The notes beneath the pieces were generated by a model. It was not told where the DNA came from, did not search any database, and saw nothing but the letters and a program-made list of their open reading frames with translations. A program made the position numbers and the translations under genes. Below are positions 47,759 to 60,136 of a DNA stretch of 64,000 nt, in pieces; position 1 is the first letter of the stretch, and every line of letters starts with the position of its first letter. This stretch comes from Sulfurovaceae bacterium (GTDB lineage Bacteria; Campylobacterota; Campylobacteria; Campylobacterales; Sulfurovaceae), in the NCBI GenBank assembly GCA_016744805.1, contig JADGDQ010000005.1, forward strand, positions 1-64,000, read 5' to 3'.

Positions 47759-48613
47759 ATGATAAACAAGATACTATTAGCAGTGCTTCTAGGGAGTAGT
47801 TTTCTCTACTCAGACTTAGTAAGAATAATGCCCTTTGGTGACTCTATTACCTATGAAAACCACCATACAGACGATGCAGGACCAGCTAGACCAGAGGGAG
47901 TCCGAAGTGCATATAGAAATTATTTATGGTACAAATTATCTGATGCCAACTTTGAGGCCAATTTTGTAGGTTCACAAAGAGCAGGTCAAGATATACATCC
48001 TGCATTTGACCCTGATAACGAAGGACATCCTGCATGGACAAGCTATGAGTTAGCCGAGAGTACATACAAATGGCTTACCAATGCTGACCCTGATATTATT
48101 TTACTTCATGCAGGTTCAAATGATTGGGATGATAGTGTAAGTGCTATTAATGATATTCTTGATTCTGTTGATTTACATGAAGAAAAGAGTGGACATACCA
48201 TTAAAGTATTTGTGGCTCTTATCCTTGACCGTGTGCGTCATGAAGAGTGGATTGTATCATTTAACAAAAATCTTCGTTCACTTGTAAATAAAAGAATTGC
48301 AAATGGGGATAACTTAGTCCTTGTAGATATGTATCAAGGTGCAGGGATAGATTACGACAATGATATGACAGATAATACACATCCAAATGATAGAGGATAT
48401 GAGAAGATGGCAAATGTATGGTACAGTGCCTTACTAGGTAAAGAAGCTCCTACAAAGATGTATAGTGACCTTCCTGTGCAAGAGGTGGAGAGTCTCTATG
48501 CCTATCCTACAACTATAGTTGATGAGAGCTATATTATAGAGAGTAGTGTAGATGAACTCAATAGAGTTGTAGTGGTCACGACTACCGTCCCTGCCCATGG
48601 AATTATATTTTAG
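47759..48613 (+). CDS. Secreted SGNH/GDSL hydrolase
   Basis: The 284-residue protein has a signal peptide (about 1-18) and SGNH blocks in order: MPFGDSITYEN (nucleophile Ser in GDS), the conserved Gly in VGSQRAG, LLHAGSNDWDD (Gly-x-Asn-Asp) and DNTHPNDRGYEKMA (Asp-x2-His). It should be an active periplasmic or secreted esterase, perhaps removing the acetyl groups that the neighbouring MBOAT pair adds. A C-terminal extension of about 50 residues is Thr/Val-rich and resembles the start of the next, small lipoprotein. It is divergent from the MBOAT gene. Confidence 0.9.
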   Translation: MINKILLAVLLGSSFLYSDLVRIMPFGDSITYENHHTDDAGPARPEGVRSAYRNYLWYKLSDANFEANFVGSQRAGQDIHPAFDPDNEGHPAWTSYELAESTYKWLTNADPDIILLHAGSNDWDDSVSAINDILDSVDLHEEKSGHTIKVFVALILDRVRHEEWIVSFNKNLRSLVNKRIANGDNLVLVDMYQGAGIDYDNDMTDNTHPNDRGYEKMANVWYSALLGKEAPTKMYSDLPVQEVESLYAYPTTIVDESYIIESSVDELNRVVVVTTTVPAHGIIF

Positions 48614-48622
48614 GATACAAAA

Positions 48623-48907
48623 ATGAAAAATTTACTACTTATCTCGGCACTACTTTTTGTAATTGGTTGTGGCGGAAATGGAAATAGCACTGTAGATAAC
48701 AATATCACAGATAGTAATTTAACTGATGAGAATATATCTACAGAAGTGAAAACAACAATGCAAATAGGTGCAGTCTATACTGTTGTTACAGGTGATAGAA
48801 TCGTTAGAGAAACAAATAGTACTAATATAGAAGTAACTTATCAAGAGAGTAACACCACAGTACAACTCCTAGAGGGAAATGCTACTATTATCTCTACTAT
48901 TTTATAG
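48623..48907 (+). CDS. Small putative lipoprotein
   Basis: The 94-residue protein has a lipoprotein signal (LLISALLFVIGCGGNGN, Cys16) and a short Asn/Thr-rich mature part. It lies 9 nt after the SGNH hydrolase gene, so they are probably co-expressed. The segment TVVTGDRIVRETNST resembles the TIVDESYIIESSV end of the hydrolase, which could be a shared, short exported motif. It overlaps the convergent wbpE end by 11 bp. Function unknown. Confidence 0.65.
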   Translation: MKNLLLISALLFVIGCGGNGNSTVDNNITDSNLTDENISTEVKTTMQIGAVYTVVTGDRIVRETNSTNIEVTYQESNTTVQLLEGNATIISTIL

Positions 48908-49997
48908 CTAGAAAGAGCCTCTGGGCTATATACTCTATCTCCTCATCACTAAGATAGGGATTCATAGGCAAACTCATAATCTCACTACTTACTAGCTCTG
49001 CAATAGGTAAATCACCTCTTTTATATCCCAAGTACCCAAAACACTCTTGCAGATGTAGAGGCATTGGATAATGAACAGCCGTAGGAATACCCATCTCTTT
49101 TAGTTTTGATTGTACTGCATCACGGTTTTCTACTCGAACACTATATTGAGCATAGGCTGAAGTGGCATCTCTATCAATAGAAGGCAATAGTATATTTTTA
49201 TCTTCTAACGCTTGTCTATATCTACTAGCCACCTCTTGACGGAGTGCCAAATCTTTTGGATAATACTTTAATTTCACATCTACAACAGTACACTGCAACG
49301 CATCCATTCTCCCACCCATTCCAATATATTTATGATGGTATCTTTTGGTTTGCCCATGGACTCTTAGAGATTTCATCTTGATAGCTAACTTCTCATTGTT
49401 AGTAAATACTGCTCCACCATCACCAAAACACCCCAAAGGCTTAGCAGGAAAAAAGCTTGTTGTAGAGATATCACCTAAGTTACTATCACTTATACCATTA
49501 TAGGTACTTCCAAAAGATTGAGCTCCATCAATAATTACTTTGAGATTATACCTCTTAGCTATGGCTTGGATTCTATCCATATTGGCAGGTTGTCCATAGA
49601 GACTTACTGGCATAATAGCCTTGGTTTTGGGTGTAATTTTCTCTTCTATCTTATCTACATCAATATTATAAGTTTTTTCATCAATATCCACAAAAACAGG
49701 CGTAGCCCCCAAAAATGCAATAGTCTCAGCAGTAGCAATAAAGGTAAAAGGAGTAGTAATAACCTCATCATCAGGCTCTATATCTAATGCCATCATAGCA
49801 AGCAGTAGAGCATCCGTACCAGAAGAACAAGTAATTGCATACTTAGCCCCTGTATAAGCTTCTAGGTTTTTTTCCAAAGAAGTTACAGCTTCACCCATAA
49901 TGTAGGCAGAAGTATCTAAAACCCCTTGCATAGCTAAATCTATCTCTTCTTTATAAAGTTGATATTGATATTGTAAATTTGCGAAATCTATTTTCAT
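48897..49997 (-). CDS. wbpE: DegT/DnrJ/EryC1-family aminotransferase (WbpE-like)
   Basis: The 366-residue PLP enzyme shows GTDALLLAMMALDIEPDDEV, the Asp-x-Ala-Gln motif IDGAQSFGS and the catalytic Lys in SFFPAKPLGCFGDGGA. In the WbpB-E-D pathway this enzyme transfers an amino group to C3 of a UDP-linked 3-keto sugar acid. Its start abuts the stop of the acetyltransferase gene. Order on the message is wbpB-wbpD-wbpE. The assignment as WbpE rests on this neighbourhood; related enzymes act on other keto sugars. Confidence 0.85.
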   Translation of the reverse strand: MKIDFANLQYQYQLYKEEIDLAMQGVLDTSAYIMGEAVTSLEKNLEAYTGAKYAITCSSGTDALLLAMMALDIEPDDEVITTPFTFIATAETIAFLGATPVFVDIDEKTYNIDVDKIEEKITPKTKAIMPVSLYGQPANMDRIQAIAKRYNLKVIIDGAQSFGSTYNGISDSNLGDISTTSFFPAKPLGCFGDGGAVFTNNEKLAIKMKSLRVHGQTKRYHHKYIGMGGRMDALQCTVVDVKLKYYPKDLALRQEVASRYRQALEDKNILLPSIDRDATSAYAQYSVRVENRDAVQSKLKEMGIPTAVHYPMPLHLQECFGYLGYKRGDLPIAELVSSEIMSLPMNPYLSDEEIEYIAQRLFLAIK

Positions 49998-50636
49998 CTA
50001 TACTACCTCTACCGTATCACCCACTATAACATACTCTCCAAACGCATCCTTAGCCCTACCATCAATAAACTCCAAAGTATCCCCACTCTTTCCAACCCAT
50101 CCAATTTGCCTAGCAGGAACTCCCACCATTAAAGCATAAGGTTTTACATCTTTAGTGATAACTGCACCACTTCCAATAAGTGCATACTCTCCAATACTCA
50201 CACTACAAATAATAGTTGCATTTGCCCCAATAGAACAGCCCTTTTTAAGGAGAGTCTTTTGAAACTCATCTTTTCTTGTAATAAACGCCCTAGGATTGAT
50301 AACATTGGTAAAGACCATAGAGGGTCCCAAAAATACATCATCTTCTATCTCAACACCTTTATAGATAGAGACATTATTTTGCACCTTTACCCCATTGCCA
50401 ATATTTACATCTGCACCTACCACACAGTTTTGACCAAAAGAGCAGTTTCTACCAATGCGTGTACCTGAAAGAATATGCGAAAAGTGCCAAATTTTTGTCT
50501 TGTTTCCTATCTTTACATTCTCATCTACAATTGTTGTCTCATGCACAAAAAAGCTCTCTTTGGGAACTTTTTTATCTTTAGATGCTCTTCTATCTCTCCA
50601 CGAGTTTTTACTCAAATATTTACCTTCGTCACTCAT
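49998..50636 (-). CDS. wbpD: Left-handed beta-helix N-acetyltransferase (WbpD-like)
   Basis: The 212-residue protein has a charged 28-residue lead, then [26 protein letters not shown] and repeated hexapeptides ([40 protein letters not shown]), the mark of LbH acyltransferases. WbpD acetylates the C3 amine made by WbpE. The start overlaps the wbpB stop (ATGA) and its end abuts wbpE, so the three are translationally coupled. The N-terminal extension is unusual for the family; an internal start is possible but has no ATG. Confidence 0.87.
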
Positions 50637-51592
50637 ACTAACACCTTCTTACAAAATGGATGGTACTCCCCTTTAAGCCCAATGGGTGCTAGGTTTCTAA
50701 TGGTGGATACGGTAGAGATAGAGCCATACGCCTCTTCTAGTCCAAAGCCATTGCCTTTGAGAATCTCTTGGTAGCTTCGTGTGTGTAAATCTGTAAATCC
50801 TCCACTAAACTCTAGCTCTTTGCCATCTACTGTGATACTTCTGTAGGTTCTCTGTCCTGAGGCTTGAATCTCTTGGGGAATATAGTCATAATTGACCGAC
50901 AAAAACCATCGCACTCTTGCATTTTTGAGTCTAAAGTATCCTGCATTAGCATCAGGGGTTTTTAGATGGACTATGCTCTCCTCTACATCACCAAAAATCC
51001 AACACAGCATATCATAAAAATGAACACCAATATTAGAAGCAATGCCACCAGATTTACTCTGTTCCCCTTTCCACGAGATAAAATACCACTTCCCACGGCT
51101 TGTAAGGTAGGTGAGGTCAATATCATAGACTCTATTTGGGTTTTGTGCTAACTCTTTGCTTATCTTCTCTTTAAGAGCTATAATAGCAGGATGGAGTCGA
51201 AGTTGCAAAATATTGTAGACCCTCTGCCCTGTCTCCTCTTGAATAATTTTTAGTTGGTCTATATTCCACGGATTCAACACCAAAGGCTTCTCACAGATTG
51301 CATCAGCTCCACTTTTGAGAGCAAAACGAATATGAGAATCATGCAGATAGTTAGGAGAACAGATAGAGATATAATCTATCTTTTTTCCTGTATCCCTATG
51401 CCACTTATCTACAAATCTATCAAACCTCTCAAACTCTGTAAAAAAGTCTGCTTGTGGAAAATGGCTATCCATAATACCTATCCCATCATAAGGGTCTAAC
51501 GCAGCCACAAGAGCATTATTGGTCTCCTTTATCGCTTTCATATGCCTAGGTGCAATATAACCCGAAGCTCCAATGAGTGCAAAATTCTTCAC
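50633..51592 (-). CDS. wbpB: Gfo/Idh/MocA-family oxidoreductase (WbpB-like)
   Basis: The 319-residue protein starts [18 protein letters not shown], a Rossmann motif, and contains [15 protein letters not shown], then [12 protein letters not shown] with the conserved Glu-Lys-Pro, and [17 protein letters not shown]. WbpB oxidises C3 of UDP-N-acetylglucosaminuronic acid with NAD. It is the first gene of the wbpB-D-E unit. The 6-dehydrogenase (WbpA) and 2-epimerase (WbpI) that would complete the pathway are not in the window. Confidence 0.87.
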
Positions 51593-51608
51593 TTTTTATC
51601 CTTTAAAT

Positions 51609-52472
51609 TTAATTATATATTAACCATAATTTACTACTAATGGCTTTATCTTCTTTTGATAAATAACTCTCGTCTATCTCTTCTAAAAAATGCTCAAAAT
51701 TATTATAAATATAATGACTCACTAAAGAATATTCTTGATTCATAGCTTTATCATCTTTTAATTCATCAACAATATAGAGTTTAAAGTTTTTCAAGAGTAG
51801 CTTAAAATCATCACTTACTTCTTGTAACTCTATCATAAAAGCAAGATTTTTTTTAAGTAATTTTAGATATTTTGTAAATATTTTCTCTCTTGCTTCTCGT
51901 AAATTTTTTCTATTCAAATCACAAATTCTTCTAGTATATATCACCTTTTCGTTATCTGAACGCATAAACCCTTTATGGTCAAAGACTATATCATCTTCAA
52001 ATGCATCAATTTCAGGATGTAATAGTTTTGGATTTTCTATACGATTATAACCTTGAAGACTTTTATGTAAGACTTCTAGTGTCTCCTTATTATAATTTAC
52101 TCTCCTATCAAAAACATCAAAACAGTTTGATTTTTCTATGTTACACTTTTTACAACAAGGCAATAAATTATCCCAAGAAAAAGCCAACCAATAGTATGCT
52201 TTTGTACTATCACATCTTGATAAATTAAAAGATTTTTTAGGACGATAATGTTCTATCTCTCCATAAGCATTTTTGATAAATGATTCACAATAGGCACACT
52301 TATAGTCGTATAATTTTTTTAGAGTATTTTTTACCAATTTAGCATCATCATTATAAGGTGTATTTTTTGATAGATAAGCACTTTTTGTTATATTATTTTT
52401 AAATTCTAATGCTATCTTTTCTGAATTTAAATGACTAGGAATAGTTATACTCCTATATTTTCGTTCCCTCAT
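51609..52472 (-). CDS. HNH endonuclease (PtuB/retron-type) of a candidate defence pair
   Basis: The 287-residue protein has a zinc-coordinated HNH fold: Cys59-x2-Cys62 (CAYCESF), the first His in GEIEHYRPK (His75), then the central DNLLPCCKKCNIEKSN with Cys107-x2-Cys110, Asn111 and Lys114. This arrangement is that of the TIGR02646-like HNH family found with Septu (PtuA/PtuB) and retron systems. N-terminal residues 1-50 and the C-terminal helical half (130-287) have no family match I can name. It starts directly after the stop of the ATPase gene, with no gap, so they form one operon and probably one complex. The pair lies between surface-sugar genes and core genes. Confidence 0.85.
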   Translation of the reverse strand: MRERKYRSITIPSHLNSEKIALEFKNNITKSAYLSKNTPYNDDAKLVKNTLKKLYDYKCAYCESFIKNAYGEIEHYRPKKSFNLSRCDSTKAYYWLAFSWDNLLPCCKKCNIEKSNCFDVFDRRVNYNKETLEVLHKSLQGYNRIENPKLLHPEIDAFEDDIVFDHKGFMRSDNEKVIYTRRICDLNRKNLREAREKIFTKYLKLLKKNLAFMIELQEVSDDFKLLLKNFKLYIVDELKDDKAMNQEYSLVSHYIYNNFEHFLEEIDESYLSKEDKAISSKLWLIYN

Positions 52473-54854
52473 CTACAACTCTTTTAGTTGATTCAATATA
52501 TCTAATTTTATTTTCTTACTCTCATCACTCTGTAACATTTTATCTATATCTCTATTAAGTTGGTGTTCCCTATAATCATCATCACTTAACCTATTTTTAG
52601 CATCATCATAAGAACGAGATTTGGCACTTTGCATATTAAACAAAGGAGAGGTAATCAAAATATTCGCAGAATAATCAGAAATATCATCTATCTTATCACT
52701 TAATTGAGTAAATCCCTCTTCATCTTTATAGACTTGATAAAATATAGCATCATCACTTGCACCTAAAATAGTGGTCATGCTGTGCGTCGTCATAATAAAT
52801 TGTATATTTTTAAAAACTTCTCTTAACTTGTAAACAAATTGATATTTCCATTTTGGATGAAGATATAAATCAATTTCGTCTATTAAGACTGTTGCTTTAA
52901 AATCAGCTAATTTTTTAATATCAGCTTGTTGTTTAATTAATCTAAACACTAAATCACTAAGCCAAATAATACTACTTTTATAGCCCTCTGAAAGCATTTG
53001 AAACTCAATTTCTTTCTCTTTATTCGAGCTTTCATAAAATTTAATTTGATTTCCTATCTTTATTATTCTCACTTTATTGTCTAAAATATTCTCAAGACTT
53101 ATAATGAACTCTTTTGTAATATCTGTATCTAATATAAATAAATCTTGTGGTCTATTGAGTGAAGTTGTATCATTAATATTAGGTGTATCAAACAAACTAG
53201 AATATCCACTTTTATCTACATCATCAGCATTAGTTTTATTTCTATTAATACCATAAGCAAATAAATTATGATTAATAAATTTATCTTCTATATCAAAAGA
53301 AAATTCATTTTTTATATTTTCGAGATATTTTAATGCCAATATAGGATAATTATCTTTATATGCCAAAGCTAAAGCTTGTAGTAAAATCGTTTTACCATCA
53401 CCATTTTCACCTACAAAATATATCTCTTTTTTATCTTCTAAATCTTTTAATTCTATATATTTAATGGAAAAGTAATTATTAATTTTGATGTTATTTATAT
53501 ATTTATTTTTGACTTTTAATTGAGGAGTGTACTCTTTTTTTTTATCTTGTATTATTTCTTCTTCCATTGCCTTTTTATTATAAAACTCCAAAGAATCTAA
53601 GCATATAGGATTAATTTCAAACCAAGTACCCTCACCAAAATAGGCAAAAACAATATTATTAGAGATAGCTTTTTCTAAATTTTTTAAATCTTCATCACTA
53701 TCTATAGCTATATTATTTGCTTTTATCTGATTGAGAAATCTTCTTTGGTTCATCACAAAGGGTGAGAGTTCTCTTTGTAATCCTTTACTGGCTTTTTCTA
53801 TTTCATCCTCTTCCAAACGATTGGTCTCTAAGAGCATGGCTTCCATCGCACCTTTATGGATGAGATAGATAAGTTGGTTCATATTTGCCCCACTCATATC
53901 AATGACTTTTTCTATAGCCTTATCTGTAATAAGGTTGCTCTTTTTTACTCTTTTGCGTATAACCTCTTTTAATAAATCTCTGTCTTTTTGATTGGGACTA
54001 GCATCATTTTTTTTGAGCTTTAGACCAAACTCTTTAAGTTCTCCAAATTTGATATATCTAGCTCTTGTGATATGTATAGGCATAGTGATAATTTTGACCA
54101 GATTAAGGTCATTGAGTATGGGTAGCTGTGCATGATGATTTTCACTATTCATAAAAAGATGATTGATGTCTTCTCGTTTTTCCAAATCATCTACGACAAT
54201 AATTAAATCTTTTTTATATTTAGCTTTATATTGAAAGATAATGTCATTGATAATTTTAATCAGCTCTTGCTTATTAAATTTAAAAAATTCTGTAGCACTT
54301 TTGACGGCTTCATCACTTAGACTATAAGAGTTAGAAAAATCTACTTTGGCTTTAAAAATACCTAATATACTTCCACCAATACCCAGATTGGACGCTAATT
54401 GTGGTTTTCCTGCTTCATTGGTGGTTTTGCTTATTTTCTCTTCTAACTCTTGATTAAATAGTTTTTCCATCTTTTCCAAAGATTCTGTGAACTCCGTAAA
54501 GAGTTCATCATCATCAGCAATAATGGCATAAGCAATATTAAACAGCACATCAGCCACATCTATTTTATTGAGATATTCAAAGTTTTTACGACCTACTATA
54601 TATTTAAAATCATACATCTCATTGATTTTAGGATAGTTAATACTTAACATATTTAGAGCCGAACTTTTACCATTACCCGTTTGACCTGCAATAAGATAAG
54701 TCTGTCTAGGATTATCAAGATTTTCTAAATCAAAGACAAATCTTCTCATACTCTCTTTAAAAATATCGACATAAAGCTCTTTGGTCTCTTCTGTAATCGT
54801 ATTTCTTGGTTTAAAAATATGATAAACTTCTTTAAGTGTTCCTGCTTTTTCCAT
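52473..54854 (-). CDS. Two-module ATPase: N-terminal AAA/KAP-like NTPase fused to PtuA-like ABC ATPase
   Basis: The 793-residue protein carries two complete P-loop modules. Module 1 (about 30-400): Walker A GQTGNGKS (57-64), Walker B LIIVVDD (217-223), followed by helical and winged-helix-like parts, as in AAA/ORC- or KAP-type NTPases. Module 2 (about 455-740): Walker A GENGDGKT (482-489), ABC signature LSEGYKSS (621-628), Walker B VLIDEID (656-662) and H-loop TTHS (689-692), the layout of PtuA/AAA_15-type ATPases with an interrupted domain. Both sites appear intact. It is followed without gap by the HNH gene. PtuA normally has only module 2; the extra NTPase is what makes this unusual. An ATG start at 54854 has AAAGATGG nearby, with no strong ribosome site. 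Confidence 0.88.
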   Translation of the reverse strand: MEKAGTLKEVYHIFKPRNTITEETKELYVDIFKESMRRFVFDLENLDNPRQTYLIAGQTGNGKSSALNMLSINYPKINEMYDFKYIVGRKNFEYLNKIDVADVLFNIAYAIIADDDELFTEFTESLEKMEKLFNQELEEKISKTTNEAGKPQLASNLGIGGSILGIFKAKVDFSNSYSLSDEAVKSATEFFKFNKQELIKIINDIIFQYKAKYKKDLIIVVDDLEKREDINHLFMNSENHHAQLPILNDLNLVKIITMPIHITRARYIKFGELKEFGLKLKKNDASPNQKDRDLLKEVIRKRVKKSNLITDKAIEKVIDMSGANMNQLIYLIHKGAMEAMLLETNRLEEDEIEKASKGLQRELSPFVMNQRRFLNQIKANNIAIDSDEDLKNLEKAISNNIVFAYFGEGTWFEINPICLDSLEFYNKKAMEEEIIQDKKKEYTPQLKVKNKYINNIKINNYFSIKYIELKDLEDKKEIYFVGENGDGKTILLQALALAYKDNYPILALKYLENIKNEFSFDIEDKFINHNLFAYGINRNKTNADDVDKSGYSSLFDTPNINDTTSLNRPQDLFILDTDITKEFIISLENILDNKVRIIKIGNQIKFYESSNKEKEIEFQMLSEGYKSSIIWLSDLVFRLIKQQADIKKLADFKATVLIDEIDLYLHPKWKYQFVYKLREVFKNIQFIMTTHSMTTILGASDDAIFYQVYKDEEGFTQLSDKIDDISDYSANILITSPLFNMQSAKSRSYDDAKNRLSDDDYREHQLNRDIDKMLQSDESKKIKLDILNQLKEL

Positions 54855-54949
54855 CTTTATTTTCCTATTTAAATTAGGGTTATAATAGTATTATTTTATA
54901 TTAATTCTAGTTTAAATTTAATTATACACTAAAATCACAAATTGTATGA

Positions 54950-54955
54950 TATAAT
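54950..54955 (+). promoter_or_regulatory. -10 box upstream of the SurA-like gene
   Basis: TATAAT in GTATGATATAATTACTT, 29 nt before the ATG at 54985. Confidence 0.45.
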
Positions 54956-54984
54956 TACTTAAATTACAAAATATGGGATTCTTA

Positions 54985-55803
54985 ATGAAAAAAATACTTC
55001 TTGTTCTGCTTATTTTTATGTCAACTTCTCAGGCTAAAATGCTTAATGGTATTGCAATTGTTGTAGAGGGAGAACCTATTACAACAGCTGAAGTACAAGC
55101 TGTGCAAACACAAATGCGTATCTCTAAAAGTGAAGCAAAAGAGCTTTTGATTGAAAATCGTCTCCAAAAATCGGCTATGAGAGATATTGTTATCTCTGAT
55201 GATGAAATTGATGAGCGAATAGCCAAAATAGCTAAACAAAATAATCTCTCAACTAAGCGATTACAACAAGAGATAAAAAAACAAGGACTCACTTGGAATA
55301 AGTTCCGTGATCAAATAAGTACAAGCCTTAAAAAACAAAAGTTTTTTAGAAGTAAAATAGCCAAAACTATTCCTATTCCAAGTAGAGATGAGTTAAAGAT
55401 TTTTTACAAAAACAATGCATCACAGTTTAAAATGCCTTCAAGTATTTCTGCAACACAGTATAGTGCATCTTCAAGTAAGAACTTAGAATCATTTATTAAA
55501 AACAAATCTAAGAAAAAAGGTATCAAACAAAAAAGTGTTAATTACAAAGGAGCTAGTTTAACTCCACAACTCTCTTCGATGTTTGCTAGTATAGCTGTGG
55601 GATCTTTTACACCTATACTTAACAATGGTTCTTCTTTTGTAACATTTCGTGTAACTAATCGAGGTAAAGGGGTGATTAAACCTTTTAATCAAGTAGAGAG
55701 TAAAGTTACTATGGCATGGAAAAACCAGCAACAATCCCAAGCAATAAAAGCCTATTTTGAAAAAATGAGAAGCAGTGCATCTATAGAGGTTATCCGCCCA
55801 TAG
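54985..55803 (+). CDS. SurA-like periplasmic chaperone/peptidyl-prolyl isomerase
   Basis: I prefer the ATG at 54985 (MKKILLVLLIFMSTSQAK), which directly gives a signal peptide and has GGATT upstream; an earlier in-frame ATG is at 54973. The 272-residue protein has an N-terminal SurA-type helical domain (NGIAIVVEGEPITTAEVQA...) and a reduced PpiC-like domain (about 145-235) with IKPFNQVESKVTMAWKNQQ following. The parvulin core is poorly conserved, so it may act as a chaperone only. Its end overlaps that of the convergent recombinase gene by 14 bp. Confidence 0.85.
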   Translation: MKKILLVLLIFMSTSQAKMLNGIAIVVEGEPITTAEVQAVQTQMRISKSEAKELLIENRLQKSAMRDIVISDDEIDERIAKIAKQNNLSTKRLQQEIKKQGLTWNKFRDQISTSLKKQKFFRSKIAKTIPIPSRDELKIFYKNNASQFKMPSSISATQYSASSSKNLESFIKNKSKKKGIKQKSVNYKGASLTPQLSSMFASIAVGSFTPILNNGSSFVTFRVTNRGKGVIKPFNQVESKVTMAWKNQQQSQAIKAYFEKMRSSASIEVIRP

Positions 55804-56638
55804 CTAAGGGATGTGCATTAAGGTACTCTAAGCGTTTTTTTTCATTACCTAGTTTAGTATAGAGTTGTGTACTTGCCATAGAGTGGTGTCCTAAGAGTTC
55901 ACTAATATCACTAATTCTTGCACCTTTATCCAAAAGATGTGTGGCAAAAGAGTGTCTTAGTTGGTGTGGTGTGGCTTTGAGTCCTTTGGACTTGAAAAGT
56001 TTTTGAAGAATATAACGAAGCTGTGCTTGATTCATCCCTTTATCTTTTTTTTCAAATAAATAGATTTTGGGTGTATACTCTTTAAGATATATTTCTAAGG
56101 ATGATTGGAGTATTGGTAAAAGAGGCATTTGTCTTTCGTGGTTGCCTTTTCCATGAACTACAATCCACTCTTTCTTAATATCTTCTATGCGTACTTGTGA
56201 TAACTCACTAATACGCAGTCCCAAGCCATACAGCATTAATACTAATAATTCCTCCATAGCATTGCTATGGTTTAAAACTTCTTGGATATAAACCTCTTCA
56301 ATTGGCTTAGGAAGTGTTTGTGGGACCTTTGTAAGATCATCTGCAATAAGCTCTAAAGGGATATTTTGTTGGTCTCGTAGATAGCGTGCAAAAGAATGAA
56401 TGGCACTTAGTTTGGTTCTGATACTTTTTTTATTGATGCGAGCTATTTTGAGACGAAAAGGAGTTAAGTCTAAAATCCATCTTCTATCTTCTTCATAAAA
56501 CTCACTTACTTCACTCATTTGACGCAAAGCAATCTCATAAGTAATAACCGTATCATTTGTATATCCACGAACTTTTTTGATATAAAGAATAAACTCTGCT
56601 ATATATCCTTGAAGTAGTACAATATTAGCTGATGGCAT
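55790..56638 (-). CDS. Tyrosine recombinase of the Xer type
   Basis: The 282-residue protein has an N-terminal SAM-like domain (1-110) and a full catalytic set: Arg142 (GLGLRISELSQV), Lys164 (HGKGNHERQ), His225 and Arg228 (HQLRHSFATHLL), His251 (LGHHSMASTQLY) and Tyr260. It is a plausible chromosome-dimer resolvase, shorter than XerH of Helicobacter and Campylobacter. Its place behind miaB and the acyltransferase, with overlaps of 14 bp, suggests a fixed core gene, not a mobile integrase. Confidence 0.9.
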   Translation of the reverse strand: MPSANIVLLQGYIAEFILYIKKVRGYTNDTVITYEIALRQMSEVSEFYEEDRRWILDLTPFRLKIARINKKSIRTKLSAIHSFARYLRDQQNIPLELIADDLTKVPQTLPKPIEEVYIQEVLNHSNAMEELLVLMLYGLGLRISELSQVRIEDIKKEWIVVHGKGNHERQMPLLPILQSSLEIYLKEYTPKIYLFEKKDKGMNQAQLRYILQKLFKSKGLKATPHQLRHSFATHLLDKGARISDISELLGHHSMASTQLYTKLGNEKKRLEYLNAHPLAMGG

Positions 56639-57248
56639 TTTTTAGCATTTTACTCTGTAGATATTCTTTTGCCTCTTCTAATTCCATACCTTCTAATGAT
56701 ACACTTTGCAGATAAAACTCTATTTTCGTAAATGGTTTTGGAATAATAAATTTATCCCAACTTTTTAGTTGCCAAAAGTTTTGAGCTTTATAGTTCATAA
56801 TAAAAATTGGTTTATTTGCTTTGAGTGCCAAGCCTATAGCACCATCACTCATACTATACCTAGGACCTCGTGGACCATCAGGAGTAATAAGTACTTCACT
56901 CCCCTCTTTTACCTTGCGAAAAGCTTGTAACAATACACCTTTAGCACCCTTACGACTAGAACCACGAAGTGCTTTAATACGCAAATATTGTAGTACTTTT
57001 GCTATAAGTTCACCATCAAAATGTTGGCTGATAATAGCTGAAGAGGGAAAATGAGGATGTATTTCGCGGTAGGCTTGAGGAGCCATAAGCAGTTCACTAT
57101 GCCAACAAACACATATATGCTGGTGTTTGCTAATAGGAGTAATAAAGTGAAATTTCTTACGAGAGGTAAACCATAAAAAACGCATGATAATATAAAGTAG
57201 TATGGGAATAATAACCACACCAATAGAACGCATAATTCTTTTTTTCAT
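56625..57248 (-). CDS. DUF374 lysophospholipid acyltransferase-like protein
   Basis: The 207-residue protein has an N-terminal membrane helix (about 5-27), CWHSELLMAPQAYRE (the variant of the HX4D motif in DUF374), ISQHFDGELIAKVLQ and SEVLITPDGPRGPRYSMSDG. The family is thought to transfer acyl chains in envelope lipid metabolism. It corresponds in place to HP0270 of H. pylori, following miaB. It overlaps the recombinase gene by 14 bp. Confidence 0.88.
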   Translation of the reverse strand: MKKRIMRSIGVVIIPILLYIIMRFLWFTSRKKFHFITPISKHQHICVCWHSELLMAPQAYREIHPHFPSSAIISQHFDGELIAKVLQYLRIKALRGSSRKGAKGVLLQAFRKVKEGSEVLITPDGPRGPRYSMSDGAIGLALKANKPIFIMNYKAQNFWQLKSWDKFIIPKPFTKIEFYLQSVSLEGMELEEAKEYLQSKMLKNAIS

Positions 57249-57252
57249 TCTT

Positions 57253-58554
57253 CTACTCCCCTATAACTATTCCATCCAAAGCACCACGAGATACTTTTGT
57301 AATTTTTACAGCAACAATTTGACCTAACAACTCTTCACTACCTTCAACAAATACCAATTTTCCATCATCACTTCGACCTGCTATTTTATTGTTTGGTTTA
57401 AGTTCATCAAAATAGACCTGATGGATAGTATCTAAATATGTATCCATTATTTCATCTAATATCTCTGTATGTCGTGCTTGAAGAGCAGTTAATCTCTCTG
57501 AAGCTATTGTTGGGTCTACCTGTTGTTCATATTCTGCTGCATCTGTATGTGGTCTAGGAGAATATTTAAATGAAAAAAGTTGATCAAATCGAACTCTCTC
57601 CAAAACATCCATAGTATCTGCAAAATCTTCATCACTTTCTGCGGGAAAACCTACAATTATATCTGTAGAAATACTCGCTTCTGGGCAAAGTGTTCGTATT
57701 TTTTGGCAACGATTAAGAAACCACTCTTTGGTATACCCTCTCTTCATAGCTTTGAGTAGCATTGTAGAACCACTCTGAAGAGGTACATGAATTTGTTTAG
57801 ATATCTTAGGATTAGATGCAAACTCTTCTAAGAATTCATTATCCATATGAAGTGGGTGTGGAGATGTAAAACGAATCCGTTCAAGCCCAGATATAGCAGA
57901 TATAGCTCTTAGAAGTTGTACAAAATCACACTTCTCATCAGGGCTAGTAAATCGTCTACCATAGTTATTAACATTTTGACCCAAAAGCATTACTTCTTTA
58001 GCACCTGTAGATACTGCCTTAGTAATCTCTTGAACTATTAACTCTTTTGGTATAGAAATCTCTTCTCCACGCGTTGCGGGAACAATGCAAAAACTACACT
58101 GCTTATCACACCCTATAGAGATGTTGACCATAGCCTTAAAAGGATTACTCCGATAAGAAGCAAAATCATAACTACTCTCATCAAAGTCTGTATCTATCTC
58201 TACGGCATGACGCTGACTAACTACATCATTAATTTTAGAAACATTTCTAGCACCAAGTACAAAATCAACTACAGGAGCTCTTTTGATAATCTCTTTTCCT
58301 AAGTGACTAGCAGTGCATCCACATACACCTATTTTTGCTCCATTTTTTCGTTTTTTCTTAAAAACACCGATTTCAGAAAATAATTTTGCTACTGGTTTTT
58401 CACGAACACTACAAGTATTGATAATAATTAAGTCTGCATCACCAAGAGTCGTAGTAAGATCATACTTCTCTTTTCTATTAAGTTCGGCAATAATATGTTC
58501 ACTATCACGACTATTCATCGCACATCCAAGTGTTTCTATAAAGAGTTTTTTCAT
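57253..58554 (-). CDS. miaB: tRNA-2-methylthio-N6-dimethylallyladenosine synthase
   Basis: MiaB adds the methylthio group at A37 of tRNAs. The 433-residue protein has the N-terminal UPF0004 domain with three cluster cysteines ([28 protein letters not shown]), the radical-SAM motif [15 protein letters not shown], and a C-terminal TRAM domain (about 370-430). Length and order are normal. It lies one base downstream of the HP0268-type gene. Confidence 0.96.
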
Positions 58555-58555
58555 C

Positions 58556-58795
58556 TTATTGTACTATATGTACCTCATAGATATACTCATTATCATCTAA
58601 ACCATATTTTACTTCACGCATATATACGCTATATTCTCTTTGTTCAAAGTGTTCAATTAACTCTATCATCTCTTTATGAGAATTATCTTTATCAAAGTAA
58701 AAGATTGATTGCTTCTCTAACTCATCTTCAATTTTATCAAGATCAATCATTTTGGGTTTTGCTTTTAGCGTTGTTCTAGCAAGTTTTAATTTCAT
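58556..58795 (-). CDS. HP0268-family small nuclease
   Basis: The 79-residue protein ([20 protein letters not shown]..., [29 protein letters not shown]) matches HP0268 of H. pylori in length, motif pattern and gene position before miaB. HP0268 has an Smr-like small fold and has been reported to nick DNA and cleave RNA. The family is nearly confined to Campylobacterota, so this gene supports the taxonomic placement. It begins the unit HP0268-like, miaB, DUF374, xer. Confidence 0.8.
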
Positions 58796-58886
58796 TAATA
58801 CTCCTGTAATTACTATTTCATTATTTAAACTATTTCTTAAATCGAATTTTTTATTATACTTTATTTTCAGTAAAGCAATGATTAGC

Positions 58887-58892
58887 TATAAT
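58887..58892 (+). promoter_or_regulatory. -10 box upstream of nusA
   Basis: TATAAT in TAGCTATAATACTC, leaving a leader of about 105 nt before the nusA ATG. The leader has a possible 10-codon frame (MLPLVALQGL) at about 58940-58972. Confidence 0.45.
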
Positions 58893-59005
58893 ACTCTTCT
58901 TCGAAAACACCCAAATCATACCCATCGGACAGACTGTTATGTTACCACTTGTAGCGTTACAAGGGTTGTGATTTTAATCAAAAACTATCAACAGGAGATA
59001 AAAAT

Positions 59006-60136
59006 ATGGAAAAAATTATAGATATTATTGAAGCTATTGCCCATGAAAAAAGTATCACAAAAGAGAATGCATTAGAAGCATTTAAAGAAGCTCTTATAAA
59101 TACAGCAAAAAGGCTCACAAGTAAAGAGAGTACCTTTGAAGTAAATATAGACCTTGATACTAGAGATTATTCTGTAAGTAAAATTATTACAGTTGTAGCA
59201 GATGATGATGATAGACTAGAAGAGTTCCATGATAGTTTCATGTCTCTTACTGAAGCTCAAGATTATGACAATGATATTGAATTAGGAGATGAGCTTCGTA
59301 CAGAATTTATATTAGAAGAGTATGGGAGAACAGCTGCTGCAAATCTCTTTAGAGAGTTAGAGTACCATGTCCAACGCCGTATAGAGCAAGATCTTTTTGA
59401 AAAACATAGAGCTCTTGTAGGCACAGTAATGATGGGAACGGTCAATCGTATAGATGCGGATGATAATACTTATGTAGAAATTGGTGAGCTAAAGGGTATA
59501 TTAAGCCAAAGAAATAGAATCAAAGGTGAAAAGTTTAAAAGAGGTGATAGTATCAAAGCTCTTTTACGCTTTGTTAGTATTGACCCTGAATTTGGTTTGT
59601 TCTTAGAACTTACAAGAACTGCTCCTAAATTCTTGGAAAAATTAATGGAAAAAGAAGTTCCAGAGATTGAAGATAACCTTGTAGAGATAATATCTACAGC
59701 TAGAATTCCTGGTGATAGAGCTAAGATAGCACTTAAAACAGAACAACTCAATATTGATCCAATAGGTGCTGCTGTGGGCGTAAGAGGTGTAAGAATTAAT
59801 GCTGTTAGCCAAGAGCTAGCAGGAGAGAATATAGACTGTATAGAGTACTCAACTATACCAGAACTTTTTGTTACAAGATCTTTAAGTCCTGCAATCACAC
59901 AAAATATCAAAATAGAAGGTAAAAAAGCTATTGTCAATATTACAAGTGATCAAAAAGCAAAAGCCATAGGAAAAAGTGGTATTAATATTCGATTAGCTTC
60001 TATGCTTACAGGATTCACTATTGAATTAAATGAAGTAGAAGGTATTACAACAAGAAGTAATGATAGTTCTAATAACGATTCAAAAGAGTCTCTTAAAACT
60101 ACAGATACTACAGCATTAGCTGATTTATTTAAATAA
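59006..60136 (+). CDS. nusA: Transcription termination/antitermination protein NusA
   Basis: The 376-residue protein has the NusA N-terminal domain (1-125), an S1 domain (about 130-200) with LVGTVMMGTVNRIDADDNTYVEIG, and two KH domains with PIGAAVGVRGVRINAVSQEL and KAIGKSGINIRLASMLTG. It lacks the C-terminal acidic repeats of E. coli NusA, as is usual in this phylum. A ribosome site (ACAGGAGAT) precedes the ATG. In most bacteria nusA is next to infB; here it is about 30 kb away. Confidence 0.95.
   Translation: MEKIIDIIEAIAHEKSITKENALEAFKEALINTAKRLTSKESTFEVNIDLDTRDYSVSKIITVVADDDDRLEEFHDSFMSLTEAQDYDNDIELGDELRTEFILEEYGRTAAANLFRELEYHVQRRIEQDLFEKHRALVGTVMMGTVNRIDADDNTYVEIGELKGILSQRNRIKGEKFKRGDSIKALLRFVSIDPEFGLFLELTRTAPKFLEKLMEKEVPEIEDNLVEIISTARIPGDRAKIALKTEQLNIDPIGAAVGVRGVRINAVSQELAGENIDCIEYSTIPELFVTRSLSPAITQNIKIEGKKAIVNITSDQKAKAIGKSGINIRLASMLTGFTIELNEVEGITTRSNDSSNNDSKESLKTTDTTALADLFK

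Follow-up and report, generated by a model that had tools for sequence, protein, structure and literature searches.

Organization of the locus

The window (the whole 64,000-nt stretch of Sulfurovaceae DNA that was analysed) carries a putative two-gene phage-defence cassette, hosted by a marine-type bacterium, in which a gene for a fused ATPase and an HNH nuclease gene form an operon (Table 1). The HNH gene begins (ATG, 52472) on the base next to the ATPase stop codon (52473-52475), the 793-aa frame contains no internal stop, and non-coding DNA at the gene pair is limited to 118 bp on its upstream side and 16 bp on its downstream side. The initial annotation had described the two open reading frames, with the HNH gene directly after the ATPase stop, and two intact P-loop modules in the 793-aa protein; our coordinates for the two frames are identical, and all of the motifs it named were confirmed. 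In addition to the two Walker A motifs, the N-terminal module has a Walker B at residues 218-226 (IIVVDDLEK), and the PtuA core has an ABC signature (621-627, LSEGYKS), a Walker B (656-662, VLIDEID) and an H-loop (689-692, TTHS). PtuB contains C59, C62, E74, H75, N102, C107 and C110. These motif residues are mostly invariant or nearly so in alignments of homologues.

Table 1. Features of the NOD-PtuA/PtuB cassette (positions in the window)
Feature	Positions	Strand	Evidence
NOD-PtuA fusion protein, 793 aa	52473-54854	-	Single open frame; AlphaFold model of two domains and a low-confidence linker
PtuB, HNH nuclease, 287 aa	51609-52472	-	PADLOC PtuB1 PDLC00316, 2e-42; alignment with 11 homologues
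NTPase module at the N-terminus (residues 1-433), predicted to be AAA+/STAND and like Orc1/Cdc6, CED-4 and TnsC	53556-54854	-	Alignments with stand-alone homologues; Foldseek; profile match
Junction/linker, residues 434-450	53505-53555	-	Homology to stand-alone NTPase stops; GC falls from ~0.30 to ~0.20
PtuA ABC-ATPase core, residues 451-793	52476-53504	-	PADLOC PtuA1 PDLC00287, 1.4e-38; Foldseek; alignment
Walker A, NOD module, residues 57-64 (GQTGNGKS)	54663-54686	-	G57, G60, G62 and K63 invariant in homologue alignment
Walker A, PtuA core, residues 482-489 (GENGDGKT)	53388-53411	-	Invariant in core alignment
16-bp direct repeat, left copy (TTTAAATTTAATTATA)	51602-51617	.	Perfect match to 54911-54926; overlaps last ptuB codons
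16-bp direct repeat, right copy	54911-54926	.	Bounds cassette

The C-terminal half and its HNH partner

Profile and fold identify the C-terminal half of the fusion as an entire PtuA ABC ATPase and its HNH partner as PtuB, which bears out the initial proposal of a Septu-type pair. The PADLOC PtuA match covers residues 587-780, and residues ~450-793 also match solved PtuA chains from Septu and retrons. When the full 793-aa chain was modelled with AlphaFold and searched with Foldseek, E. coli Septu PtuAB (8eea) and retron PtuA were the best folds. Homology in the core sets in ~37 residues ahead of Walker A, the point at which canonical PtuA begins; in Septu EcB88 the Walker A lysine is K43 (PMC13096335). 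Going by the PtuA (1.4e-38) and PtuB (2e-42) matches, together with the 63% identity of the N module to a stand-alone protein, chance resemblance is excluded. Both proteins score under the NCBIfam retron cut-offs (PtuA 81.8 vs 500; PtuB 50.3 vs 150), and the core sits on a long branch (0.76) in the core tree. No close relatives of the HNH protein were found in viral contigs; seven phage records gave PtuA-like matches, all of them short.

The N-terminal module is a predicted AAA+/STAND NTPase

No curated family matched residues 1-433 above its cut-off. A profile built from 13 homologues gave weak matches to TnsC, RFC and ORC chains, the best solved-structure match being VchTnsC (2.3e-4). Single members of the family touch AAA_22, AAA_16, ATPase_2, NPHP3_N, NACHT and NB-ARC; the Pfam STAND models are matched weakly and by some members only. 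The AlphaFold model of the module (pLDDT 81, pTM 0.80) was matched by Foldseek to Cdc6/Orc1 (1e-8) and CED-4 (3e-6), and also to an archaeal Walker-type ATPase (2qen), Apaf-1 and TnsC; the TM-scores of ~0.44 therefore indicate likeness at the clade level and no close kinship. Based on these matches, residues 1-433 are best described as an AAA+/STAND NOD of the Orc1/Cdc6-CED-4/TnsC type and not as a KAP protein. The initial annotation had anticipated an additional AAA/KAP-like NTPase: the additional module is genuine, but its KAP assignment is not supported, as Pfam gave no KAP match. A likeness to Mad8 (0.0067) was set aside as too weak. The fusion protein carries no sensor repeat domain, and no close relatives of the N module were found in phages.

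In Campylobacterota the N module occurs as a separate gene of ~425-440 aa, a stand-alone family with a TPR partner that the initial annotation had not foreseen. A TPR gene directly follows or overlaps the NTPase gene in 16 of the 19 loci checked (pairs were seen at L011-L016, L018, L020-L022 and L130-L134), and at a seventeenth, L137, the neighbour has weak TPR similarity. At L023 the NTPase gene is frameshifted and TPR-like sequence still lies downstream; L025 and L026 are FtsK-type proteins, matched via the P-loop only. Two loci place the module beside effectors. At L015 (764-3037) it is fused behind a Fic-like domain, as read from the sequence, with a TPR gene coming after it, and at L017 (4824-7840) a truncated copy lies beside TIR and ThsB-like TIR genes. 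Identity of the stand-alone homologues to the N module is 26-63%, falling to 18-21% in the most distant members. The nearest, at L018 (63%), terminates (...FYNTKAKG*) exactly where the fusion continues into the linker and PtuA. The L018 and L019 contigs are titled Helicobacter pylori/cetorum; they look like Sulfurovum/Sulfurimonas-type MAGs, and the titles are probably wrong. A search of the source genome with the N-terminal part of the TPR partner found no such partner of the NOD there, a search that had no positive control in that genome.

Interchangeable N-termini on the PtuA core

Among relatives, the N-terminus attached to this PtuA core falls into at least nine classes, and in most cases PtuB lies downstream. 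Among them are a CARF domain (L066; TIGR02549, 28.5 bits against a cut-off of 21), a TPR N-terminus (L064) and an IF2_N plus winged-helix N-terminus (L061). The others are a family of 230-265 aa (11 loci), a helical family of ~110 aa (6 loci), a region of ~130 aa that is Rossmann-like in appearance with no family assigned (L062, L063), two apparent transmembrane helices recognized by eye (L070), a 163-aa region with no family assigned (L087) and almost no extension at all (L073, L099). An EVE domain guessed by eye at the L087 N-terminus was dropped, having no Pfam support. The core tree implies at least 11 changes of N-terminal class. The winged-helix protein of L061 and the TPR protein of L064 illustrate this well: their cores are 74% and their PtuB proteins 76% identical, and their N-termini are unrelated. 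In a more distant protein of 1116 aa (L109:1507-4857), NB-ARC and TPR repeats are combined with a PtuA-like ABC ATPase, and remnants resembling HNH lie immediately downstream. In the five PLSDB plasmid homologues examined, all from outside Campylobacterota, PtuA begins shortly before the core.

Within this PtuA clade the N-terminal modules vary as a rule, and the fusion is a Septu variant built on a plug-in architecture. The new variant proposed at the outset thus stands, although this changing of modules across the clade had not been foreseen. Such broad N-terminal modularity was not found in the literature searched, a set without the main classification papers, and may be new.

The source genome holds two further PtuA-PtuB pairs with other N-terminal modules (L054 in G000:C24 and L055 in G000:C62). 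At L066/L110 (G099:C137, PtuA ORF L066:220-2577) a CARF domain of ~427 aa with a DxTHG motif is fused to the PtuA core, with PtuB downstream; by its domain content this protein is a candidate cyclic-oligoadenylate-gated Septu.

A mobile cassette at a variable site

The cassette is a self-contained mobile unit of 3.3 kb, with only the fusion and PtuB genes and perfect 16-bp direct repeats at its ends. In the sister species (G005; SurA 89% identical) the same neighbours occur without either gene, and the empty site holds a single copy of the repeat (L124:10625). A two-gene cassette with an empty site in the sister species leaves no third gene, RT or ncRNA. Consistent with this, no RT gene was seen by eye among the ORFs at 46-60 kb and no Rfam family matched within 48000-60000. 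The initial view that the system is not a retron therefore held: with neither an RT nor an msr-msd ncRNA in a complete two-gene cassette, a retron is ruled out.

In G005 the stretch between surA and xerH-like genes, across surA from the empty site, encodes a cytosine methyltransferase along with a putative restriction enzyme (L124:11587-13345), and the insertion site therefore looks like a spot of defence-gene turnover between housekeeping genes. Another inserted ORF was noted nearby (L124:8718-9548). GC content is 30.7% in the N-terminal and 24.9% in the C-terminal half of the fusion, 25% in core and PtuB together, and 33-40% in the adjoining genes; the step at the junction suggests that the two halves are of separate origin.

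Is the fusion genuine?

The search covered overlapping sets of genomes (149 relatives, 397 from the phylum, 399 from the order, 175 from the family and 34 from a neighbouring genus) as well as genome contigs. The N module and the PtuA core were each found many times in them, and they are joined only in the source genome. The exact NOD-PtuA fusion is thus a singleton from a MAG of 94 contigs. These sets contained no second such fusion. Consistently single-module homologues had been named as a sign of a mis-joined frame: the two halves are indeed consistently separate elsewhere, yet the frame here is unbroken, and cores of this clade normally bear an N-terminal extension. A misread frame is ruled out, as both modules are complete in one open frame.

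An accidental fusion with no working joint protein is a different matter. It could have arisen by recent recombination of two hotspot alleles (NTPase plus TPR, and PtuAB) or as a metagenome assembly chimera, and the single example, the fragmented source genome and the differing GC of the halves would all be expected of it. The GC step fits recombination, a chimera being its less likely cause. However, the join is in frame, contains no stop and has a complete domain on either side. At both of its outer ends the insert meets the host sequence precisely where the empty site lies, and the direct repeats there match. Catalytic motifs are all retained in both halves and in PtuB, and sister cores usually bear some fused N module. 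We therefore think an accident unlikely, and take the fusion as a real Septu variant that clearly exemplifies a wider pattern of modularity.

Comparison with known systems

Septu (PADLOC Septu type I) has the same ABC-ATPase core with Walker A/B, signature and H-loop, has PtuB directly downstream and matches in fold (8eea/8sux/8ee4); its complex has been given as a PtuA6:PtuB2-type oligomer (PMC12948488). It differs in that Walker A lies at about residue 43 in canonical PtuA (PMC13096335) and at 482 here, behind a complete fused AAA+/STAND NTPase of 433 aa. The protein thus does not consist solely of the ABC core, as canonical PtuA does. Canonical length describes PtuA without being an exclusive rule, and therefore we speak of a variant of Septu. 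Retron type I-A/retron-Septu (Eco7/Ec78, Ec83; PADLOC Septu type II) has homologous PtuA and PtuB, and a regulatory module that holds PtuAB is probably an idea common to both, whereas the 3.3 kb here leaves no room for an RT and msr-msd. STAND/NLR-type NTPases (CED-4, MalT, Avs) resemble the fusion in their AAA+ NOD core with Walker A/B, in an effector on the same chain and in the separate TPR partner of the N module's sister systems; unlike them, the fusion has no sensor repeats, and its effector is an ATPase with a separate nuclease. The Campylobacterota NTPase-TPR pairs share the N module, but the gene that follows is TPR there, while PtuA is fused and PtuB follows here. In ptuXYZ, PtuY (PMC11980606) is a PtuA-like ATPase with other effectors, which shows the ATPase to be modular, although no fused second NTPase is reported and PtuB is absent.

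A proposed model for NOD control of PtuAB

PtuAB is toxic alone and is held by RT-msDNA in retrons (PMC11555353, PMC12948488). In the Ec83 retron-Septu, msDNA keeps PtuAB inactive until infection (PMC12948488); with PtuAB of retron-Eco7, tRNA-Tyr is depleted and msrmsd plus RT neutralises the effect (PMC11555353). Septu defence requires the Walker and HNH residues (PMC13096335), and STAND NODs pass from a closed ADP state to open ATP multimers (PMC6468293).

On balance we lean towards a mobile two-gene Septu variant in which the fused NOD is a regulatory plug-in on a PtuA-PtuB killing engine, since the anatomy of the protein makes gating of PtuAB by the NOD the most likely reading. The core would be an ABC-type ATPase oligomer bearing the HNH nuclease, and the NOD would take the role that RT-msDNA plays in retron-Septu and that CARF, TPR, winged-helix or other N-termini may play in sister systems. 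At rest, the NOD would be ADP-bound and closed, holding the PtuA oligomer so that PtuB could not cut. An infection cue (a phage product, a DNA/RNA state or a nucleotide change) would cause the NOD to exchange its nucleotide and to oligomerise or be released, which would rearrange PtuA and free PtuB to cut a nucleic-acid target, perhaps tRNA or DNA, stopping the infection abortively. What we infer in this scheme is the direction of control (lock versus activator), the trigger that the NOD would sense, the target cleaved and the antiphage activity.

The frequent TPR partner gene, as in sensor-NOD pairs, favours a switch, as does the pairing of the N-module family with effectors in the Fic fusion and beside the TIR genes. 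The L109 protein provides a second NOD-PtuA-like case. The many N-terminal classes borne by one core and the repeat-bounded cassette with its empty site likewise speak for this reading. Against a switch, the fusion has neither sensor repeats nor a TPR partner found in its genome, and the whole-protein model (pTM 0.50, linker pLDDT ~35) does not fix the domain arrangement. The single occurrence of the exact fusion and the long branch of its core also count against the scheme. The N module could instead be an Orc/TnsC-style loading or targeting factor that brings PtuAB to DNA or RNA. VchTnsC as its closest solved-structure sequence match, DNA-bound Cdc6/Orc1 among its closest folds and the winged-helix module on another PtuA core are consistent with this, but the family is usually partnered by a TPR protein, and Fic and TIR effectors need no DNA loading; such a role seems distinctly unlikely to us. 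It is very improbable that free PtuA is also made from an internal ATG at residue 434, which would leave the fusion as a minor, regulatory version within an otherwise ordinary Septu pair. Starting at M434 would put Walker A at residue 49, near the canonical position, and would resemble the plasmid homologues, yet no plausible ribosome-binding site precedes M434, while an AGGA lies upstream of the annotated start.

In the preferred reading, that of a NOD regulating PtuAB, a NOD-type switch domain that is usually a separate gene lies on the front of a Septu ATPase and may hint at how the trigger of Septu, described as unclear for plain Septu (PMC12198126), is wired. The fusion would link Septu with immune NTPases and their NLR-like logic, as a bacterial NOD switch directly controlling a second ATPase-nuclease machine. 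More broadly, and with a little under an even chance of being right, Septu PtuAB may serve generally as a plug-in effector, with swappable N-terminal modules determining its activation; here it would be wired to an NLR/CED-4-like NOD. Retron-Septu would then be one case of a general rule, and exchange or removal of the front ends (NOD, CARF, TPR, winged helix, membrane helices) of this common engine would directly test Septu's trigger. The CARF-fronted sister would likewise tie PtuAB to cyclic-oligoadenylate signalling.

Separately, on a Deinococcus plasmid (L139) genes for SAVED-domain and patatin-like proteins flank a PtuA homologue and the hypothetical gene that follows it, which may point to a link with CBASS.
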